Below are positions 5,940-16,770 of a DNA stretch of 64,000 bases, piece by piece. How positions within the stretch are numbered: position 1 is the stretch's first letter; every line of letters starts with the position of its first letter. Source of the DNA: Candidatus Leucobacter sulfamidivorax (GTDB lineage: Bacteria; Actinomycetota; Actinomycetes; Actinomycetales; Microbacteriaceae); contig QZLF01000003.1 of assembly GCA_016771945.1 (NCBI GenBank), positions 186,001 through 250,000 on the forward strand, written 5' to 3'. A program made the position numbers and the translations under genes. The notes under the pieces are model-generated. The model was not told the DNA's origin. It saw only the letters and a program-made list of their open reading frames with translations, and did not search any database.

Positions 5940-6527
5940 ATGTCACAGCCCCCTGTTCTTCCCTGCCCGTCGTGCTTCCGAACGGATGGTGTTCGGGTGA
6001 AGCGGCACAGTGCGAAGCCCACCCCACAAGCCGCCGCTGGTGCTCCGGTTCGGTTGCCGCTCGTGCAGATGAGCGTGCGGCCCGATGGGGCGATGACGGT
6101 GCTGCTCGACGGGCAAGTGTACGAGCCGCCACCGTATGCTCCGGCCTGGCGCAGGGAGGCGTTCTCGGCAGTGCTCGAAGCGATCACCACGAGCCTGGGC
6201 ACAGCGGTCAAGGTCACCGTCACCGAGTACGACGGCGCAACATTCACTGACGTTGTGATGCCGCCGCGCGCCCCTGCGCCGCTTCCGGTCGCTCCCGTGT
6301 CTGCTCCGGTGCCGATAGGGCAGGTGCCTCCGGTGCCGGTGCAAGGGCACGGGTTTCTCGCTGGCGAGGATGTCGCGATCGCGCCGATCATCGGCTACGG
6401 CAGCGCCGCCCCAGACGGGCAGGTCAACGCGGTTGTGGCGCAGGATCAGATACCGGCGAACGTGCAGGAGATGCTGCTGGTTGGGCGAGTCTCGGGCACC
6501 ATGCAACTCGTTCGGGCGACACCATGA
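5940..6527 (+). CDS. Hypothetical ICE protein upstream of coupling protein
   Basis: A 195-residue protein starting with a single CPSC motif (residues about 9-12), then a region of about 80 residues that could form a small alpha/beta domain (VQMSVRPDGAMTVLLDG), a Pro/Val-rich linker and a C-terminal segment ending in MLLVGRVSGTMQLVRATP. Only one Cys pair is present, so a zinc ribbon is doubtful. Its stop overlaps the coupling-protein start (ATGA), implying coupled translation and a likely accessory role in transfer. No family can be named. Confidence 0.7.
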   Translation: MSQPPVLPCPSCFRTDGVRVKRHSAKPTPQAAAGAPVRLPLVQMSVRPDGAMTVLLDGQVYEPPPYAPAWRREAFSAVLEAITTSLGTAVKVTVTEYDGATFTDVVMPPRAPAPLPVAPVSAPVPIGQVPPVPVQGHGFLAGEDVAIAPIIGYGSAAPDGQVNAVVAQDQIPANVQEMLLVGRVSGTMQLVRATP

Positions 6528-8308
6528 ACCGGCAAGTCGGCGGGTACGGGCACGAGCTGACCAACTTCGCGATGGTCGGCCTCGCCGCCCTGTTCGCGCT
6601 TGCACTCGTGCTGCGTGCCGCAGGCACTGTCACCGCGTGGGCGACCGGCCACCCTGCACCGGAGGCTGGGATTGCGGCGGGTGCCGGAGTGCTCTTCACT
6701 CCCGGCGACCCTGGTACGGCGCTCGGCGCGCCAGGGTTGAACCCGGTCGTGTACTGGTTCATCTCCGCCGTCTTTCTGGGTCTCATCTCCGGCATCGCAT
6801 TGTGGGTGTGGACGCTTGTGCGTCGCGGCCAGAAAAGACGAGAGGCCGATCCTCGCAGGATCGTTGGCGTCGCGACCCGCGCAGACATCGAGGCGCAAGC
6901 ATCCGAGAAAGCGCTCATGCGCCGGGCCGCAAACCTGCGCCCCACGCTCGCCATTCCTCGACCCTCTGATGTTGGCTACCGTCTCGGTTCCGCTCACGGC
7001 AAACCTGTGTGGGCGTCGGTCGAAGACTCGATGCTCGTGCTCGGCCCGCCCCGCTCTGGAAAGGGCTTGCATCTCGCGATCAACATGATCCTTGACGCTC
7101 CGGGCGCGGTGGTCACGACGTCGACGCGACCGGATAATGTGACGGCGACGCTCGAGGCGCGCAGGAGAGGCGAACGGCCGGTGGCGGTGTTCGATCCGCA
7201 ACGCCTCGCCGATGGTATTCCTGCGGGAATGAGATGGTCGCCGGTGCGGGGTTGCACCGACCCTCTCACCGCGATGATCCGCGCCACCGGCCTCGCTTCC
7301 GCGACCGGGCTGGCTTCTGGCGATACCGAGAATGGCGGCTTCTGGGAGGCGAAAACTCGGGTGGCGTTGCAGTCGCTGCTGCACGCTGCCGCACTCGACG
7401 AGCGGCCCACATCAGAGTTGTTCAGGTGGACGCTCGATCCTGCCGCTGCCGCTGAGGCCGTCACCATCCTTGAAAGCACGCCTCATGCGGCGTCTGGGTG
7501 GGCTAACGCGCTCGGCGGCGTGATCGACGCTGACCCGAGAACACGCGACAGCATCTGGCAGGGTGTCGCGCTCAGTCTTGCCGCGCTCGCCGACCCGCGC
7601 GTGCTCGATACCGTCTCACCCAGCCCTGGGGAAGAGTTCAATCCGGCGCAGTTCCTCGCTGATCGGGGTACCCTGTATCTGCTTGCGACCGGAGCCGGGG
7701 CTGGCGCGTCAGCCTCCCTGGTGGCGGCGCTTGTGGAAGACATCGTGGAGACCGCCCGCCGTCAGGCGGCGGTCTCTGCTGGTGCCCGGCTCGACCCTCC
7801 GCTGGCGCTGGTGCTCGATGAGATAGCGAACATCGCGCCGCTACCGTCGCTTCCGACGCTGATGGCTGAGGGCGGTGGCACCGGCATTACGACGGTGCCG
7901 ATTCTGCAATCGCTCGCGCAGGCGCGAGAGAAATGGGGTGACAACTCTGCGAACGCGATCTGGGATGCGTCGATCGTGAAAGTGATTCTCGGTGGCGCGT
8001 CGAACACGCGCGACCTGCAAGACCTTTCCGCCCTGTTGGGTGAACGCGATGAGCACACCGATTCGATCACGATGGGCGCGTTCGGTGAGCGTTCCTCGCA
8101 GCGGTCGATCCGCAGGGTGCCGATCATGCCGCCAGAGAAGCTGCGCATGATCCCGTTCGGTACGGGCGTGACGCTGCTGCGTGCCGCACCCCCGATCATT
8201 ACCGATCTGCGACCTTGGACAGCGCGTAACGATGCGGCGCAGCTTCGCTCGGATCGGGCGCGGCTCGAATCCACGTTGAGAGGCGGTGCTTCCGATGGCG
8301 AGGCGTAG
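6524..8308 (+). CDS. VirD4/TraG-like type IV coupling protein
   Basis: A 594-residue membrane-bound coupling ATPase that should dock the relaxosome to the transfer channel. Two N-terminal membrane segments are visible (about residues 12-40 and 75-98). Walker A GPPRSGKG is at 174-181. Walker B VLDEIANIAPLPSL is near residue 430, followed by the TraM-recognition region (GGGTGITTVPILQSLAQ). Length and order match the TraG/VirD4 family. It overlaps the upstream hypothetical gene by 4 bases and the downstream methyltransferase-helicase start by 14 bases. No relaxase is present in the visible part of the element, so its partner must lie to the left of the window or be unconventional. Confidence 0.9.
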   Translation: MNRQVGGYGHELTNFAMVGLAALFALALVLRAAGTVTAWATGHPAPEAGIAAGAGVLFTPGDPGTALGAPGLNPVVYWFISAVFLGLISGIALWVWTLVRRGQKRREADPRRIVGVATRADIEAQASEKALMRRAANLRPTLAIPRPSDVGYRLGSAHGKPVWASVEDSMLVLGPPRSGKGLHLAINMILDAPGAVVTTSTRPDNVTATLEARRRGERPVAVFDPQRLADGIPAGMRWSPVRGCTDPLTAMIRATGLASATGLASGDTENGGFWEAKTRVALQSLLHAAALDERPTSELFRWTLDPAAAAEAVTILESTPHAASGWANALGGVIDADPRTRDSIWQGVALSLAALADPRVLDTVSPSPGEEFNPAQFLADRGTLYLLATGAGAGASASLVAALVEDIVETARRQAAVSAGARLDPPLALVLDEIANIAPLPSLPTLMAEGGGTGITTVPILQSLAQAREKWGDNSANAIWDASIVKVILGGASNTRDLQDLSALLGERDEHTDSITMGAFGERSSQRSIRRVPIMPPEKLRMIPFGTGVTLLRAAPPIITDLRPWTARNDAAQLRSDRARLESTLRGGASDGEA

Positions 8309-11300
8309 ACGGCAGCCGCCACCAGATCAGCTTGAGCTCGACCTCTGGGGTCTGGACGAAACAACCGCTGACGCACAGATTGCTGAAGCTGGCACACGAG
8401 AAGCAGGTGAGCTCAATGACGCACTACGCGCACCGGATCAGGGCACATTGGGAGAGGTACGCCCCGAACCACATGAAGACCTTGGCGGCTTCGAGCGAGG
8501 ATCTGGAGACACGCTTTTCGGAGATTGGAACCGAAGTGCTGGGGGAAGTGAGTTCGCTGAGCGAGGACATGGCGCGCGTGATGCTGGCGGAAATGCCCGA
8601 AGCGAGGGAGGATTATCTCACCCAGGTCGCACTGCTGACCACGGCCCGGAAGATAGCGGAGGAGATCGCCATGACTCATCAACTCGCATGGATGAGCGAT
8701 CCCTCGCTGACTCTGACCGAGGCTCGACAGGAGTGGGAGGACACCCGGCCGATGGACGAGGGGCTGATGATGATCGTCGATCGGATTCAGGACAGCCCGT
8801 ACCCGATCTACTCGACCGAGGAACTGGAAGAGATAGCTCAGGAATGGGCGATCCCGATGTGGTTCTTCGAGGGCCTGATCGGATCGGAGAACCCCTACCG
8901 CTACCTGGAGGAGTATCAGGGGATCATGGAAGAAGCAGCGAATATTCGCTTCCTCCGCGAAGTCCAGTAGCCGAAACCCTCGAGCCAGCAGCGCCCCGTC
9001 TGGCTGCACCCCGGTTTGTGCCGGGCGCAGCAGATGCGCGCCCGCCGAGCGGTGCGAAGAGCCGCTACCACGCAAACATCGCCGCGATCCGGCTATTGCG
9101 GCAGCTTGAAGCGGAGCAACGGCCGGCCACGGAGGCTGAGCAGACGATGCTCGCACGCTGGTCGAGCTGGGGTGCGGTGGCAGACGTGTTCGATACGTCA
9201 AAACCGGAGTGGGAGAAAGAGCGCGCCGAGCTGCGCGAACTGCTCAGTGAAGACGAGTGGCGGGCTGCGGCCCGCACGACGATGAACGCGCACTACACCG
9301 ACCCCGATGTCGTGCGTGAGATATGGCGGGCGCTAGGAGACCTCGGTTTCTCGGGCGGTCGCGTGCTCGAACCGGGTAGCGGATCCGGTACGTTCATCGG
9401 TCTCGCACCCGAAGGTGCCCATGCGACTGGCGTGGAGCTTGACCCGATGACGGCGGCGATCAGTCGCGCACTCTACCCCGACGCAAATATTCGCACCGAG
9501 TCGTTCGCAGACTCCCGATTCCCCGAGGGCACATTCGACGTTGCGGTGGGCAACGTGCCCTACGGGAAGATCCAGTTGCATGACCGGGTGTACAACGCCT
9601 CTGAGTATGCGATCCACAACCACTTCATCATCAAGTCGCTGAGGCTCTTGCGGCCTGGCGGGCTGATGGCGGTACTCACTTCCTTTTACACGCTCGACGC
9701 CAGGAACCCTGGCCCACGCCGGGAGATGAACGCAGTCGCTGACCTCATCGGCGCGGTCAGGATGCCGAGCGGAGCGCACCGCAGGATCGCGGGCACCGAG
9801 ATCGTCACCGACCTCTTACTGTTCCGTCGCCGCGCAGACGGTGAACCACCGCGCGATCTCACTTGGGAGACGGTGACGCAGCTCGACTTCGACGGGAAAC
9901 CGTTGAACCTGAACCGCTACTTTGACGAACACCCGGAGATGGTGCTCGGCGAGATCGGGATGCAGCACGGCCTCTATTCGGCACTCACCCTCGTCGTGAA
10001 AGGCGACCACGAGCACGCCGCCGAGCACCTGCAAAACGCACTCGACCAGCTGACATTCCAAGCACGTCGCGAGGATTTGACACTGACCGAGGCCGCACCG
10101 GAGGTCGAGGCAAGGCGCGCGGCATTCGTGCCGTCGGAGCCTGGCCGATGGGATGGGTCAATCGTGCCGCACGACAATGGCAGCTTCGGCGTGGTCGCCG
10201 TAGGCGCAGTCGTGCCATTCAAGGTCGCGAAGTCAGCGGCGCGAGAGCTACGAGCGCTACTCAGTTTGCGGGATCAAGCGTCGACGCTGCTCACGATGGA
10301 GGCGCACTCCCTCGATGACACCCCTGAACTCGATCAGGCACGCGAACAGCTACGCCGCTCCTACCAGAAGTATGTCGGCGTCTATGGGGCGCTGAATCGC
10401 TACAAGCTGCGCAGTACCGGGCGATTCGATGAGGACGGCAACCCGAAGTACGCGCGCACGGTGCCGACCCCGATCAGACTGCTGCGCAGCGACCCGTTCG
10501 GGCCGCTCGTGCTCGCGCTCGAGAACTTCGAGGAAACCACTCAAGAAGCGACTCCGGCGACATTGCTGAGCGAGCGGGTCGTGGTGCCCAGGCCTGAGAT
10601 TCAAGGAGTGGAGACCCCTGCGGACGCGGTAGCGGTGAGTCTCGACCGTACCGGCGGGATCGACCTGATCCTGATCGCCGATCTGCTCGGCATGAGCGAG
10701 CCGGAGGCTCGCGGCGCACTTGACGGCCTGGTGTTCACCGATCCGGTGACCGATGAACTGATCCACGCCCCGGCGTACCTTTCGGGTGACATCTACGAAA
10801 AGCTCGACGCTGCCCGTCAGCGTGCAGAGCGTGATCCCGAGTTCGCGGTGAACATCACCGCACTGGAACAAGTGAAGCCCGAACCGCTCGGCGCTGAAGA
10901 CATCACGCCGAGGATCGGAGCGGTGTGGATCAGCGCGCAGATTCACCAGCAGTTCCTCACCGAGCTTCTGCAGGCCCGTGATGTCGTGGTCGAGAACCCG
11001 GTGCCAGGCATGTGGCAGGTGAAGGGCGGCAGGCACGGTATCCGATCAACCTCCGAATGGGGCACCGAGCGTCGCTCCGCGCCCGTTCTGCTTGAAGCGC
11101 TCGCTGAGCAGCGACCCATCCTCGTCTACGACACCGAAAAGGACATAGAGGGCAAAGAACGGCAGGTACTCAACCCCACCGAGACAGCAGCCGCACAGGA
11201 AAAGGCGAACCAGCTACAGGAGCGGTTCGCTGAATGGGTGTGGGAAGACCCCGAGCGCGCCCGCACCCTGGTAGACGGCTACAACCGCAGGTTCGCGTGC

Positions 11301-14054
11301 ATCGCGCTCCGCGACTACACGGGCGCTGCCGACTATCTCACATTTCCAGGGCTTGCTGCGAACACGATCACGCTGCGCCCGCACCAGCGCGCAGCGGTAG
11401 CCCGGATGGTCGCAGAACCGTCCGTCGGTCTCTTCCATGAGGTCGGTGCAGGGAAGACCGCTGAGATGGTGTGCGGGGCGATGGAGATGCGACGTATGGG
11501 CCTCATCAACAAGCCCGTTGTCTCGGTGCCGAATCATATGTTGGAGCAGTTCTCGCGTGAGTGGTTGCAGTTGTATCCGAACGCGAAGATTCTCACAGCG
11601 TCGAGCCAGGATGTGACGCGGGATCGGCGGCGAGCGTTCGTCGCGCGGGCAGCGGCGAACGAGTGGGATGCGATCATCATGACGCACTCCGCGTTCGAGC
11701 GCGTGCCACTGCGGGTCGATACCGAACATGAGTATCGTGACCGGCAACTCGACGCTCTCCGCACCGCGCTCGAAGCCGCCGACAAGGAAGATCGCATCAG
11801 TGTGAAGCGGATGCAGCGCGCCCTCACAATGGCCGAGGAACGCCTCAAGAAGCTCGCAGACAAACCCCGCGATCCGGGCATCAACTTCGAGGACACCGGT
11901 ATCGACTACGTCATCGTGGACGAATCGCACCTTTTCAAGAACCTTGCCACACCGTCGAACATTCGAGACGCCTCGATCACCGGGTCAGAGCGCGCTTCCG
12001 ATCTTCACATGAAGCTCGAGTATCTCCGTTCGACGGGGAAGACAAGGATCGTGACCGCTGCGACGGCGACGCCAATCTCGAACTCCATCACCGAAGCGTA
12101 TGTGATGCAGCGCTACCTGCGCCCAGACCTGTTCCATGCTGCCGGAATCGGTGAGAGCTTCGACGCATGGGCGGCGACCTTTGGCGAGACAGTCACGCAG
12201 ATGGAGATGTCTCCCACGGGTGCGTCATTCAGGATGAAGACGCGATTCGCGAAGTTCCAGAACGTACCCGAAATGCTCCGCATGTGGTCGACGTTCGCCG
12301 ACGTGAAAACCGCCGAAGATCTGAAGCTCCCCGTTCCCGACATTCGCATTCGCGACGATGGCAACCGTGCCCCGCTCACCAGAGGCGTAGCCCCATCGTC
12401 CGAACTGGTGGCGTTCGTGAAGACCCTCGGTGAACGTGCCGAGATGATTGCCTCCGGCAGTGTTGACCCGCGCGAGGACAACATGCTCTCGGTCACCAGC
12501 GACGGCAGGAAAGCCGCACTCGATATGCGGCTGACCATCTCTGACGATCCCTCCGGCCCTACCAAGGTCGACGTCGCGGCCGACATGATCTTCCGCACCT
12601 GGGAGAACACCCGAGATACCGAGTACCTCGATACGGTGACCGGCGAGCCATCGCCGATCAAAGGTGCGATGCAGTTGGTGTTCTCCGACCTCTCGACACC
12701 GAACAAGGAGCGGTGGAACGTGTACGAGGAACTGCGCACCCAACTCATCTACCGTGGGATGCCTGCCGAGGGTATCCGGTTCATTCACGAGGCCCGCAAC
12801 GACCTCGAGAAAGGTCGCCTGTTCGCGGCTGCCCGCGCCGGACACATCTCTGTACTTCTCGGTTCCACCGAACGCATGGGCGTCGGCACGAACGTTCAAG
12901 CACGAGCCATCGCGCTCTATCACCTCGACTGCCCTTGGCGACCCTCTGATATTGCGCAACGCGAGGGCCGGATTCTGCGGCAAGGCAACCAGAATGAGGA
13001 AGTCGCAATCGTCAGGCTCGTCACCGAGCGTTCTTTCGACTCGTATATGTGGCAGGGCGTTGAGCGTAAAGCGAAGTTCATTTCACAGGTGATGCGCGGC
13101 AGGCTGGACGTACGCGAGATCGAAGAAATCGACTCAGCCTCGCTCACCGCTGCCGAGGCGAAAGCCATCTCGTCCGGCAACCCACTGTTGCTCGATCAGG
13201 CCAATCTTCAGAGTGAAGTTACCCGGCTGCGACGACTCGACCGGGCGCACCAGAACAACGAGCGGATGCTCGAATACACCCGTTCCCAGGCAGTTCAAGA
13301 CGCTGCCCGTGCTGCCGATGACATCGACGGGATACGGGCAGCGATCCCGAACATGATCGACACCACGGCCGAGAAGTTCCGCATCACGATCCAAGGCCGC
13401 TTCTACGATTCGCGTAGCGATGCCGGCCACGCGCTCATGGGATGGGCAAGGCAAGCGAACATGCAATACGCAGGGCGTCACCAAGCACAGGACTACGGCG
13501 TGATCGGGCGGATCGGCGGCTTCGACATCAGCTGCGAGCTCGTGCCCGAAATGGCCGGAGACGTGCTCGTGCGTACCAGCTTGCACGGAGTACCGAGGGG
13601 ATCGTTTACTGTCACCCGAGACTCGTTCCTGCAAGGCGGTGTCGGTCTGATCCAGCGGATCGAGAATCGTATGGCTGCACTCCCGAAGCTGTTGGCCGAA
13701 GCCGAACAGGATCTAGCGCGAGCCGAACAGACCCGGCAGGATGCCGAGCAGCGTCTCGGGCAACCGTTCAAGCATGCCCTCGCGCTCTCTGCGGCTGAGG
13801 CCGACCTCGAGAAGGTCGAGAAGAAGATCGCCGTTATGCAGCGGCAAACCCCGGAGGAACCCTCCCCAGAGCCTGAGCGGGTCTCGGCTTCGCCGTCTCG
13901 CCCGGAACTCACGGTTGAGGCGGTGCGCGCGTATCAGCCACTGGGCGGGGTGCGCTCCGATCCCGAGCAGCAGCGACCCCATGCTCCGGCTGCTGCTCCC
14001 AGCGCGTTCGCCCCGGTGCCGCCGAGACCGTCTGGGTTGCAGATCGGGCGGTAA
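8295..14054 (+). CDS. DarB-like DNA methyltransferase-helicase fusion
   Basis: A very large protein, 1919 residues from ATG 8295. A Gly/Asp/Arg-rich, low-complexity N-terminus (about residues 40-230) precedes an N6-adenine methyltransferase domain with motif I LEPGSGSGTF (about 357) and motif IV NVPYG (about 420). A superfamily 2 helicase follows, with Walker A EVGAGKT (about 1050), motif II DESH (about 1207) and motif VI QREGRILRQGNQ (about 1555), then a coiled-coil C-terminus. Fusions of this layout resemble phage P1 DarB, which protects incoming DNA from host restriction, so anti-restriction or DNA processing during transfer is likely. The N-terminal start is uncertain: the stretch 8416-8970 is also a protein-like frame in another phase, and an in-frame GTG at 9018 could be an alternative start just before the conserved region. 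Confidence 0.85.
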   Translation: MARRRRQPPPDQLELDLWGLDETTADAQIAEAGTREAGELNDALRAPDQGTLGEVRPEPHEDLGGFERGSGDTLFGDWNRSAGGSEFAERGHGARDAGGNARSEGGLSHPGRTADHGPEDSGGDRHDSSTRMDERSLADSDRGSTGVGGHPADGRGADDDRRSDSGQPVPDLLDRGTGRDSSGMGDPDVVLRGPDRIGEPLPLPGGVSGDHGRSSEYSLPPRSPVAETLEPAAPRLAAPRFVPGAADARPPSGAKSRYHANIAAIRLLRQLEAEQRPATEAEQTMLARWSSWGAVADVFDTSKPEWEKERAELRELLSEDEWRAAARTTMNAHYTDPDVVREIWRALGDLGFSGGRVLEPGSGSGTFIGLAPEGAHATGVELDPMTAAISRALYPDANIRTESFADSRFPEGTFDVAVGNVPYGKIQLHDRVYNASEYAIHNHFIIKSLRLLRPGGLMAVLTSFYTLDARNPGPRREMNAVADLIGAVRMPSGAHRRIAGTEIVTDLLLFRRRADGEPPRDLTWETVTQLDFDGKPLNLNRYFDEHPEMVLGEIGMQHGLYSALTLVVKGDHEHAAEHLQNALDQLTFQARREDLTLTEAAPEVEARRAAFVPSEPGRWDGSIVPHDNGSFGVVAVGAVVPFKVAKSAARELRALLSLRDQASTLLTMEAHSLDDTPELDQAREQLRRSYQKYVGVYGALNRYKLRSTGRFDEDGNPKYARTVPTPIRLLRSDPFGPLVLALENFEETTQEATPATLLSERVVVPRPEIQGVETPADAVAVSLDRTGGIDLILIADLLGMSEPEARGALDGLVFTDPVTDELIHAPAYLSGDIYEKLDAARQRAERDPEFAVNITALEQVKPEPLGAEDITPRIGAVWISAQIHQQFLTELLQARDVVVENPVPGMWQVKGGRHGIRSTSEWGTERRSAPVLLEALAEQRPILVYDTEKDIEGKERQVLNPTETAAAQEKANQLQERFAEWVWEDPERARTLVDGYNRRFACIALRDYTGAADYLTFPGLAANTITLRPHQRAAVARMVAEPSVGLFHEVGAGKTAEMVCGAMEMRRMGLINKPVVSVPNHMLEQFSREWLQLYPNAKILTASSQDVTRDRRRAFVARAAANEWDAIIMTHSAFERVPLRVDTEHEYRDRQLDALRTALEAADKEDRISVKRMQRALTMAEERLKKLADKPRDPGINFEDTGIDYVIVDESHLFKNLATPSNIRDASITGSERASDLHMKLEYLRSTGKTRIVTAATATPISNSITEAYVMQRYLRPDLFHAAGIGESFDAWAATFGETVTQMEMSPTGASFRMKTRFAKFQNVPEMLRMWSTFADVKTAEDLKLPVPDIRIRDDGNRAPLTRGVAPSSELVAFVKTLGERAEMIASGSVDPREDNMLSVTSDGRKAALDMRLTISDDPSGPTKVDVAADMIFRTWENTRDTEYLDTVTGEPSPIKGAMQLVFSDLSTPNKERWNVYEELRTQLIYRGMPAEGIRFIHEARNDLEKGRLFAAARAGHISVLLGSTERMGVGTNVQARAIALYHLDCPWRPSDIAQREGRILRQGNQNEEVAIVRLVTERSFDSYMWQGVERKAKFISQVMRGRLDVREIEEIDSASLTAAEAKAISSGNPLLLDQANLQSEVTRLRRLDRAHQNNERMLEYTRSQAVQDAARAADDIDGIRAAIPNMIDTTAEKFRITIQGRFYDSRSDAGHALMGWARQANMQYAGRHQAQDYGVIGRIGGFDISCELVPEMAGDVLVRTSLHGVPRGSFTVTRDSFLQGGVGLIQRIENRMAALPKLLAEAEQDLARAEQTRQDAEQRLGQPFKHALALSAAEADLEKVEKKIAVMQRQTPEEPSPEPERVSASPSRPELTVEAVRAYQPLGGVRSDPEQQRPHAPAAAPSAFAPVPPRPSGLQIGR
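8416..8970 (+). CDS. Nested out-of-frame gene inside the methyltransferase-helicase ORF
   Basis: A 184-residue acidic, helix-rich protein (begins MTHYAHRIRAHWERYAP) encoded one frame away from the helicase ORF and entirely inside it. ATG 8416 has AGGTGA five bases upstream. Most codons in this frame end in G or C, as expected for a real gene in this genome, while the helicase frame over the same bases reads as Gly/Arg/Asp-rich low complexity, as expected of a shadow. The frame stays open upstream to 8332, but that part is less protein-like. It contains repeated acidic helices (SEDLETRFSEIGTEVLGEV, YSTEELEEIAQEWAIPMWFF). I do not recognise a named family. Either both frames are translated (overprinting) or the helicase starts later. 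See findings. Confidence 0.7.
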   Translation: MTHYAHRIRAHWERYAPNHMKTLAASSEDLETRFSEIGTEVLGEVSSLSEDMARVMLAEMPEAREDYLTQVALLTTARKIAEEIAMTHQLAWMSDPSLTLTEARQEWEDTRPMDEGLMMIVDRIQDSPYPIYSTEELEEIAQEWAIPMWFFEGLIGSENPYRYLEEYQGIMEEAANIRFLREVQ

Positions 14055-14128
14055 TCGCTTCTCGGGGTGGCGACCTCACCTCCTTGTTGCCGCGCGGAGG
14101 CGCGGTGCTACAGGCAAGGAGAACCCCA

Positions 14129-14647
14129 ATGAACGACAGCAGCGAACCGGCCCCCGCATCTGAGCCGATCGAAACCCTCGATGCGATCGTCGGGTTCTTT
14201 GCAACCGACCCGAAGCCCAGCAAGACCCGCGACGGCGCACCCAAAATCTATGCCCGCTACGGCACCGAGCGATTCGTTCACGATCCCGAGACGGGCAGCA
14301 CGATCAAGGAAGAGCCAACCTTTCACGCGCTCACCGCGTACTGGGGTGCTGCCGAGACAATCCTCGCTCAGTACCACAAGGGCGACTCGTTCATCGCGCA
14401 GGGGGTGGTGCGAGTCAGCGAGCAGACGGGCAAGGAACGCTTCGAGATCAAGCAGATCGGCCACAACACCCGACGCACCCGTTACACGGTCGACCGCAGC
14501 CCCCGCACCGAACAGCGTGCGGTAGAGCAGACCGCGATGAGGCAGGCACTCAGCACCGCGCAGGAGCACTCGACGGCAGTTAGCGCGCATCCTGAGCCGC
14601 GCCGCACCACGCACATGAACGCGGCATCAGTCGGCGTGAGTCGATGA
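14129..14647 (+). CDS. SSB-like OB-fold single-stranded DNA binding protein
   Basis: A 172-residue protein with an OB-fold-like core: an initial strand IVGFFATDPKPSK, a central YWGAAETILAQYHKGDSFIAQG, and GKERFEIKQIGHNTRRTRY, matching SSB-type proteins encoded by actinobacterial conjugative elements. A Gln/His/Arg-rich tail follows. It should coat transferred or replicating single-stranded DNA. The frame is open from 14084, but ATG 14129 is preferred because AAGGAG sits eight bases upstream. It follows the methyltransferase-helicase and overlaps the next gene by 4 bases (ATGA). The classical acidic SSB tail is not seen. Confidence 0.75.
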   Translation: MNDSSEPAPASEPIETLDAIVGFFATDPKPSKTRDGAPKIYARYGTERFVHDPETGSTIKEEPTFHALTAYWGAAETILAQYHKGDSFIAQGVVRVSEQTGKERFEIKQIGHNTRRTRYTVDRSPRTEQRAVEQTAMRQALSTAQEHSTAVSAHPEPRRTTHMNAASVGVSR

Positions 14648-15356: not shown

Positions 15357-16538
15357 CTACTCTGGCTTCGCGAATGCACTCTCAAGAATCTCGGCAGTCT
15401 TCGCATTCACCATCTGGTTGCGGCGAATGTAGTGCTGGATCGTGATTCTTGGATCAGTGTGCCCGAGCAGTTCGGCGGCAAGTTCCACGTCTGCCGCCTC
15501 GCTCACTGCGGTGGCGACGGTTCGGCGGAACATATGCGGAGTGATACCCGAGAGTCCTGCCAGGTTCAAAGCCTGACGAAGTTGACGGCGCACATTCGCC
15601 GGAGAGAGCGGAGTGCCCTCGCGAGAGCAGAACAGCAGTGCCTCTCGCGAGGTATCGGTGAGTTTGCTCAGGCGGCTGCGTACTGCTTCGGCAGTGAACG
15701 AAGGAATCGCTGCCGTGCGCTTCGACTTCGAGGTCTTCGGATGATCCTGGCGTTGCACCGGCTCACCCTTCGGGCAAACGATCGTGCCCGCAACCTCCAT
15801 CGTCGGCACAGCCGAAGCCACATCGACATCCATACGCCGGAAAGCCAGCGCCTCTCCGATACGACTGGAAGTGCCCAGCAGCACCTCAACAATCTGCCCA
15901 AGCTGACCGTCAGGCTTTGGGCCAGACGATGAAAGGCCAGTTTCCCAATGAGCGATTGCGGCACGCACCGCGTTTACCTCAGCCGGGGTCAACGCATCAG
16001 GAGTGTGTTGTGGCTTCCGCAGTTTGGCGATGCCGTCCATCGGGTTACGTGGCAGAACCTCATGCCGCACGGCAAGCCCGAAAGCGAGACGCATGACGTT
16101 GCGCGCCTGCTTCGCGCGATTGTAGCTCTGGCGGGCAAGCTGTTTAATGTGCCGGTCACAGCGAGCAACGCCAATCTCCCGCAGCGTGAAGTCTTTGAAC
16201 GCGGGGAGTACGAGAGTTCGCATGTTCCGCTCGTAGAGCTGCTTGGTGGCCTTGGCAAGATGATCTTCAAGTTCCAGGTCTTCAAGCCAGTAGGTCACGA
16301 GTTCAGTAAACGGGCTGTCTGGCGTGAGGGTCAGGTTTGAAGGCTGGAATTGAGTGCGCTCAGCGAGCTTCACCTTAAGCGCAGCCTCGGCAGCTCTCTT
16401 CGTCGCAGCGGTGGCCTGCACGGGGCGGGTGACTCCATCCCAATCTCGCATATTTGCGCGCGCCTCAACGCGATTGTTCGGCCTAGAGATGAACCAGATG
16501 TCACCGAAGGTACCGATGGGGAGACGTGGCCTGCTCAT
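15357..16538 (-). CDS. int: Tyrosine recombinase, ICE integrase
   Basis: A 393-residue site-specific recombinase that should catalyse integration into and excision from the tRNA-Pro gene. It has an N-terminal arm-binding region, a core-binding SAM-like domain (about 75-170) and a catalytic domain. Visible catalytic residues are Arg226 (SSRIGEAL), Lys in the KTSKSKRT segment (about 268-273), His335 and Arg338 (HMFRRT), His360 (LLGHTDP) and nucleophile Tyr370 (QHYIRR), so the R-K-H-R-H-Y set is complete. ATG at 16538 (MSRPRLPIG) is chosen over a longer open frame because GGGGGTGA lies just upstream. The excisionase gene ends four bases before this start, indicating co-transcription. Confidence 0.95.
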   Translation of the reverse strand: MSRPRLPIGTFGDIWFISRPNNRVEARANMRDWDGVTRPVQATAATKRAAEAALKVKLAERTQFQPSNLTLTPDSPFTELVTYWLEDLELEDHLAKATKQLYERNMRTLVLPAFKDFTLREIGVARCDRHIKQLARQSYNRAKQARNVMRLAFGLAVRHEVLPRNPMDGIAKLRKPQHTPDALTPAEVNAVRAAIAHWETGLSSSGPKPDGQLGQIVEVLLGTSSRIGEALAFRRMDVDVASAVPTMEVAGTIVCPKGEPVQRQDHPKTSKSKRTAAIPSFTAEAVRSRLSKLTDTSREALLFCSREGTPLSPANVRRQLRQALNLAGLSGITPHMFRRTVATAVSEAADVELAAELLGHTDPRITIQHYIRRNQMVNAKTAEILESAFAKPE

Positions 16539-16542
16539 CAGT

Positions 16543-16770
16543 TCACCCCCGATCCGATTCGAGGCTGCCGGGATCGCGCTGCGTCTCCATCCAGTTCTGC
16601 ACATCGGAGAGCGCGAACTTCAGCCGCTTGCCGAAGCGGTAGGCGCGAGGGCCGAGTCCGCGTGCCCTCCAGTCGTAGAGCGTCGAGACCGGAACCCCGA
16701 GATAGTCGGCAAGCTCGGTGATGTCGAACAGCGGTTCGAGGGAGCGGTGAGGGGTGGGCTTCGTATCCAT
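16543..16770 (-). CDS. xis: Excisionase / MerR-like helix-turn-helix protein
   Basis: A 75-residue DNA-binding protein with a winged helix of the AlpA/excisionase type: DITELADYLGVPVSTLYDW forms the helix-turn-helix, followed by RAYRFGKRLKFALSDVQNW. It lies directly upstream of and in the same operon as the integrase. Such small proteins bend att DNA to favour excision and may control int expression. Its own upstream region (16771-16949) carries direct repeats suited to binding by it or by the integrase arm domain. Confidence 0.9.
   Translation of the reverse strand: MDTKPTPHRSLEPLFDITELADYLGVPVSTLYDWRARGLGPRAYRFGKRLKFALSDVQNWMETQRDPGSLESDRG

Follow-up and report, generated by a model that had tools for sequence, protein, structure and literature searches.

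A TnpV-like gene nested in the +1 frame of a methylase-helicase gene: a probable overprinted pair in Candidatus Leucobacter sulfamidivorax and related loci

In Candidatus Leucobacter sulfamidivorax, the gene for a TnpV-like protein is inferred, with a probability of about 0.92, to form a genuine overprinted pair with the gene for a large methylase-helicase, inside which it lies out of frame on the same strand (Table 1). The window, i.e., the whole stretch of DNA that was analysed, comprises 64,000 nucleotides. The original prediction had described two open frames over the nested region and had offered a choice between overprinting and a mis-annotated helicase start; the observation of a nested gene is confirmed, and overprinting is the option favored by homologues of the nested protein, by apparent selection in both frames, and by a conserved N-terminus that the helicase frame encodes ahead of the nested ORF. 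Comparison among related loci shows two frames kept open in a fixed register, each apparently under selection, and both proteins are probably made.

Table 1. Features of the nested gene pair and its neighborhood in the window (positions of the window; + and -, strand).
Feature	Position	Strand	Details	Basis
SNF2-type helicase fused to adenine-methylase-like domain (host gene)	8295..14054	+	1919 aa from ATG 8295; alternative start GTG 8286	Pfam matches and homologues
Helicase-only N-terminal segment, MARRRRQPPPDQLELDLWGLDE...	8295..8415	+		Motif patterns across loci, pN/pS
QLELDLW, sliding-clamp-binding-like motif, helicase frame	8328..8348	+		Variant counts in relatives
Shine-Dalgarno-like AGGTGA of nested gene	8405..8410	+	5 bases 5' of ATG	
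Nested gene	8416..8970	+	+1 frame; 184-aa TnpV-like protein	
Helicase-frame spacer, nested stop to domain	8971..9062	+		pN/pS 0.16 (23 disjoint pairs)
Conserved methylase-helicase N-terminal domain	9063..9833	+	Served as search profile A1	
TraG/VirD4-type coupling protein	6524..8308	+		Pfam TraG-D_C 5e-29, T4SS-DNA_transf 2.4e-22
SSB-like protein (downstream context)	14126..14647	+		Pfam SSB 2.4e-4, below cut-off
Tyrosine-type integrase (context of integrative element)	15357..16604	-		Pfam Phage_integrase 1.5e-20

When the ORFs of the window are re-read, both frames are stop-free across the nested region, as had been reported; the helicase ORF is free of stops from GTG 8286 through ATG 8295 up to 14054, and the start proposed at 8295 coincides with a conserved N-terminus (MARRRRQPPPDQLELDLWG) and overlaps the coupling-protein gene, which ends at 8308. 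The predicted AGGTGA was likewise found in place, five bases before the nested ATG, and the helicase frame over the nested region is rich in Gly, Arg, and Asp, as described. Scanning of the neighbors identified the TraG/VirD4 coupling protein on the upstream side and, on the downstream side, SSB-like and DUF4913-like genes. Pfam matches of the window helicase to Eco57I (residues 406-471), SNF2-rel_dom (1034-1296), and Helicase_C (1496-1567) each fall slightly under the curated cut-off. The helicase domain is identical across 258 residues to that of Leucobacter sp. cx-328 (locus L038), and the nested ORFs of the two differ by one base; the script used to score Shine-Dalgarno sequences credits the nested ATG of L038 with only three matching bases. 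The helicase domain of Gulosibacter macacae (L039) is 97% identical to that of the window, which suggests recent transfer between genera.

Under the proposed arrangement, the helicase would start at 8295, overlapping the coupling-protein stop, and the nested gene would have a start of its own, ATG 8416, served by a separate Shine-Dalgarno sequence, and would be read in the +1 frame to a stop at 8970. Ribosomes translating the helicase would decode this stretch as a linker, hydrophilic and probably disordered, by which the conserved, clamp-binding-like N-terminal motif would be connected to the methylase-helicase.

Searches with the nested protein (tblastn), which had been suggested as a check, return relatives on actinobacterial plasmids (27-36% identity) and in a genome of the same genus (67%); the plasmid homologues are several times annotated as a separate hypothetical protein right before the helicase. 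Against the Pfam TnpV model (PF14198), the window protein scores 14.8 bits (E 0.029), which falls short of the curated cut-off of 27 bits; 28 of 49 aligned members of the nested family match TnpV at E ≤0.1 (best 1.7e-6), and profile-profile alignment (hhalign) of the nested family (A3) with four Bacillota TnpV proteins (A4) gives 95.1%, E 3e-8, over 81 columns. Because its Pfam score lies under the cut-off, we regard the nested protein as TnpV-like, i.e., by sequence a distant relative of TnpV, rather than filing it as a member of that family. The AlphaFold2 (AF2) model of the 184-aa protein is all alpha (pLDDT 85, pTM 0.47), in line with the helical protein predicted from its sequence; structure searches with this model found no convincing fold match.

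The relation between the two frames was examined in actinobacterial loci, of which L001-L012 came from searches with the nested protein and L013-L142 from searches with the helicase domain only, so that the nested gene could not bias their sampling. In a six-frame search of all loci with the nested-family profile, 118 of 124 TnpV-like rows sit in the +1 register of the helicase (108 of 112 for helicase-fetched loci only). The six non-nested rows comprise two loci with a broken helicase or helicase frame (L005, L134), two truncated loci (L098, L136), an extra upstream copy (L135), and a short piece (L011); both of the latter loci also carry a +1 nested copy. Of the helicase-fetched loci, 120 have an intact helicase front, and 107 of these contain a TnpV-like gene. 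In the 61 non-redundant loci, the nested stop lies 32 to 209 bases from the domain, with 27 different values that all share a single register. Other +1 ORFs, with no TnpV-like match, lie at the same place in L030 (863-1399), L031 (662-1384), and L032 (1022-1459); by eye these share a WALP motif and possibly form a second nested family. The helicase loci of L091 and L103, contigs labeled Vibrio cholerae strain 35D, look Arthrobacter-like by eye and are most likely assembly contamination.

Over the nested ORF, the helicase frame is open in all 61 non-redundant actinobacterial loci (14.2 expected from shuffles synonymous for the nested frame), with no stops against 89.6 expected, and the third frame is open in none of the 61. 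For the helicase-fetched subset, the helicase frame is open in 52 of 52 loci (12.9 expected; 73.2 stops expected). At the single locus L038, 1.0% of shuffles that are synonymous for the nested frame leave the helicase frame open, and 0.3% of those synonymous for the helicase leave the nested frame open. The constraint is also seen at degenerate third positions of nested codons: T before AA, AG, or GA, which would make a helicase-frame stop, occurs at 0 of 1671 sites, compared with 390 of 4471 other sites, and the helicase domain, as a control, is unbiased (248/2459 vs. 1064/10428 elsewhere). The loci are related, and the counts are therefore non-independent trials whose P values are not literal; the complete absence of such T residues beside a flat control is plain despite this kinship.

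Selection was gauged as pN/pS, given as uncorrected proportions over 23 disjoint pairs, and this per-frame check, which had been proposed with the original prediction, gives 0.34 for the nested frame, so that selection appears not to be confined to the helicase frame; the corresponding values are 0.30 for the helicase N-terminal segment (pN < pS in 22 of 23 disjoint pairs) and 0.13 for the domain. Synonymous divergence is lower in the nested frame than in the domain (120 of 127 pairs; 22 of 23 disjoint pairs). Taken alone across the overlap, the helicase frame has a median pN (0.111) above its pS (0.058), the 'shadow' pattern that would be expected if TnpV is the stricter frame; its residues there are thus loosely held, as a spacer that must remain open and hydrophilic. 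Hydrophobic residues of the helicase frame fall below the synonymous-shuffle expectation in 59 of 61 loci (27 of 61 for the domain control), and in 57 of 61 when stops are forbidden in the shuffles, plus 7 of 7 loci outside Actinomycetes, with a small effect size (11.3% vs. 12.2%). Together, these comparisons indicate that both frames are under selection over the nested ORF.

The helicase frame ahead of the nested ATG encodes a conserved segment of the form MARRxRxPPPGQLEFDLWG. A loose pattern for it and its variants matches in 106 of 117 loci (a few matches being doubtful), and a strict one in 71 of 117; GQLEFDLW is the commonest clamp-like variant (n = 31), and distant helicases have N-terminal forms resembling QLDLF, QPDLF, QMSLF, or QIDLF. 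The bacterial sliding-clamp-binding motif is QL[SD]LF, which the helicase N-terminal motif resembles. The start of this upstream segment has a Shine-Dalgarno-like core of at least four bases in 33 of 52 loci. Two alphaproteobacterial helicases, L144 (2231-2500) and L145 (2111-2500), have a start like the clamp motif (QLNLFD in L144) and no TnpV-like gene, so the clamp-like motif appears to be independent of the nested gene. Because there is no stop between N-terminus and domain, a ribosome making the N-terminus would read through the nested region.

An alternative reading is that only the nested gene codes over its 555 bases, the helicase starting downstream at GTG 9018 or a similar codon and the openness upstream being a by-product of high GC. 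Of 403 windows of matched length taken from helicase bodies, 68 are indeed open in the same-register frame, so that openness at a single high-GC locus is only moderately improbable and the comparative set decides, and public tables often place the helicase start after the TnpV-like gene. Against this, the register is single in 118 of the 124 rows, stops are absent where 89.6 are expected, the upstream N-terminus is conserved in the helicase frame, and the same-register ORF also occurs in plasmid loci of only 27-29% GC. Moreover, no Shine-Dalgarno sequence was found at GTG 9018, and in 35 of 61 loci there is no in-frame ATG, GTG, or TTG from 30 bases before the nested stop to the domain; a start is present in the other 26, with a Shine-Dalgarno-like core (at least four bases) in eight. 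The annotated helicase starts of L003, L012, and L146 fall inside the conserved domain itself. A helicase start near 9018, the second option in the original prediction, is thus very unlikely. The error appears to lie instead with the public tables, which start the helicase late or omit the nested gene. Among the inspected plasmid loci with both genes, the small gene accompanies a late-starting or unlisted helicase in, for example, L003, L008, L009, L010, L143, L153, and L157, and the whole helicase is listed without the small gene in L006, L147, L151, L154, and L155; the PLSDB gene table is incomplete, and a gene unlisted there may be annotated in the original record. For this common mobile-element helicase, public records thus shorten or leave out one member of the pair.

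The converse, that only the helicase frame codes and the 184-aa ORF is open by chance, draws on the tendency of high-GC DNA to yield long ORFs, and has a negligible probability given that 99 distinct nested proteins across 117 loci form one family, start with ATG in 57 of 61 non-redundant loci, follow a Shine-Dalgarno-like core of at least four bases in 55 of 61, and show a pN/pS well below one; the kinship to Pfam TnpV, and the annotation of a stand-alone gene as 'TnpV protein' elsewhere, argue in the same direction. Programmed frameshifting, which would join the frames into a TnpV-helicase fusion instead of two separately started proteins, would be equally well served by a fixed +1 register; the nested ORF, however, has its own Shine-Dalgarno sequence and ATG and ends 32-209 bases before the domain, and the conserved N-terminus lies upstream in the helicase frame, making such a fusion extremely improbable. 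Two separately initiated proteins, from overprinted genes, remain the preferred reading.

The same arrangement recurs outside the Actinomycetota. In Bacillota, TnpV-like genes are nested in the +1 register in Cohnella, Enterococcus, Virgibacillus, Monoglobus, and three Subdoligranulum records; the nested Cohnella protein is a full Pfam TnpV match (106 bits), and that of Enterococcus matches the nested profile at E 0.0012. Helicases of Campylobacter lari, Helicobacter winghamensis, and Pseudomonas fluorescens also contain a +1 nested ORF with a Shine-Dalgarno-like sequence; their nested proteins are mutually related (Pseudomonas E 0.0012), and tblastn with the C. lari nested frame finds relatives in 212 Campylobacter and Helicobacter plasmid records. 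For TnpV kinship of these Campylobacterota and Pseudomonas ORFs, there is no profile match, and hhalign gives 0.2% and 1.6%. Helicase-frame stops in the nested ORF number zero in both C. lari (9.2 expected) and H. winghamensis (6.8 expected), and the probability of an open frame at a single locus is 0.001 for Enterococcus, 0.06 for Virgibacillus, 0.12 for Cohnella, and 0.15 each for Monoglobus and Pseudomonas (the reverse shuffle being uninformative for Pseudomonas, at 1.0). Chance is therefore excluded at single loci in low-GC plasmids. As a natural control, TnpV stands free in L158 and L177, and the frame that would correspond to the host there contains four stops in each gene. Helicases lacking a nested gene occur in Acetobacter, Shinella, Vallitalea, Lactobacillus, and L137.

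Variants on this layout include a Helicobacter suis plasmid (L156, 1287-3353), in which the helicase is fragmented and a 199-codon +1 ORF related to that of Campylobacter is kept inside a 689-codon ORF, and the Monoglobus helicase ORF (L157, 3307-8337), with two Pfam MutS_I matches (E 1.4e-25) 5' of the methylase domain. One genome (L167/L172; open frame of 6550 aa) carries tandem TnpV-like copies, one ending just before the helicase ORF and one nested in it.

Co-occurrence was assessed in the class, with 394 genomes per search (one search for the helicase and one with the nested profile): the nested profile matches 14 genomes, all of them among the 25 with the helicase. Apart from the window genome, 11 of the 13 matching genomes are flagged as nested, and the window genome makes a twelfth; the exceptions are L168 (+1 within its ORF, with the domain position unplaced) and L161 (helicase frame broken). 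A genome from another class of the phylum (L173), found with PF14198 alone, has the nesting in the same register. The poorly understood TnpV family thereby gains a context, in that its nested-profile matches in the class sample occur only in helicase genomes (14/14).

What the nested protein does can be addressed more tentatively. Because its gene is paired with a transfer helicase, the TnpV-like protein may serve that helicase specifically, as a partner or regulator, during DNA transfer, and nesting may keep both genes together. Alternatively, it could be an excision factor without a role for the helicase; similarity to lambda Xis led to a postulated role in excision for TnpV of Tn4451 (in the available portion of PMC3158075). 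In L158, the TnpV gene comes immediately after that of a large serine recombinase, and the window element carries an integrase; on the other side stand the confinement of nested-profile matches to helicase genomes and the many carriers that are plasmids, and a purely excisive function is accordingly unlikely. With respect to origin, TnpV exists free-standing and appears to be the stricter frame; it may thus have come first, the helicase gene later being extended over it. A broader reading, to which we would give somewhat less than even odds, is of an ancient, near-obligate gene-within-gene, always +1, that predates the spread of the element across Actinomycetota, Bacillota, Campylobacterota, and Pseudomonas, and whose products would work as a pair in DNA that has just entered a cell, the helicase being tethered to the replication clamp of the host; on that same reading, the nested gene of Campylobacterota and Pseudomonas would be either the same gene, diverged past recognition, or one invented a second time. 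Recurrence of the pair in at least two phyla makes it testable and a possible yardstick for overlapping-gene detection.

Three known systems invite comparison. The nested family resembles TnpV of Tn4451-type elements, according to the profile-profile alignment and the 28 members matched at E ≤0.1; the window protein is longer (184 aa vs. a 111-position profile), with a C-terminal helical extension, and its gene is nested, whereas those of L158 and L177 are free of a host ORF. TnpV of Tn4451 adjoins the large serine recombinase TnpX; none was found among the window neighbors scanned, where the integrase is of the Phage_integrase type. The host gene resembles the 'dyad' of a DarB-like adenine methylase and a SWI2/SNF2 helicase described among polyvalent proteins of phages and conjugative elements (PMC5512222), with which it shares a methylase-like domain followed by an SNF2-type helicase in one chain, beside conjugation genes; its relatives L154 and L174 pass the Pfam cut-offs for a methylase and an SNF2 model. 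A further trait of such DarB-like dyads is protection of DNA in cis against type I restriction. The window helicase differs in that its linker encodes a second gene; the terms 'TnpV', 'overlapping', and 'out of frame' do not occur in the main text of PMC5512222, as available, and TnpV-in-helicase nesting was not found in titles or abstract openings of the open-licence literature on TnpV, polyvalent proteins, and overlapping genes. Of the long overlapping genes of bacteria, only a few have been fully established (available portion of PMC9927249). Those reported for E. coli, several of them antisense, have expression data (PMC4683798, PMC7103648, and PMC9927249, in the portions available) and are similar in having two proteins per stretch of DNA that are missed by gene callers; the window pair, identified from sequence, differs in being same-strand, in recurring across phyla, and in encoding a recognisable protein family.
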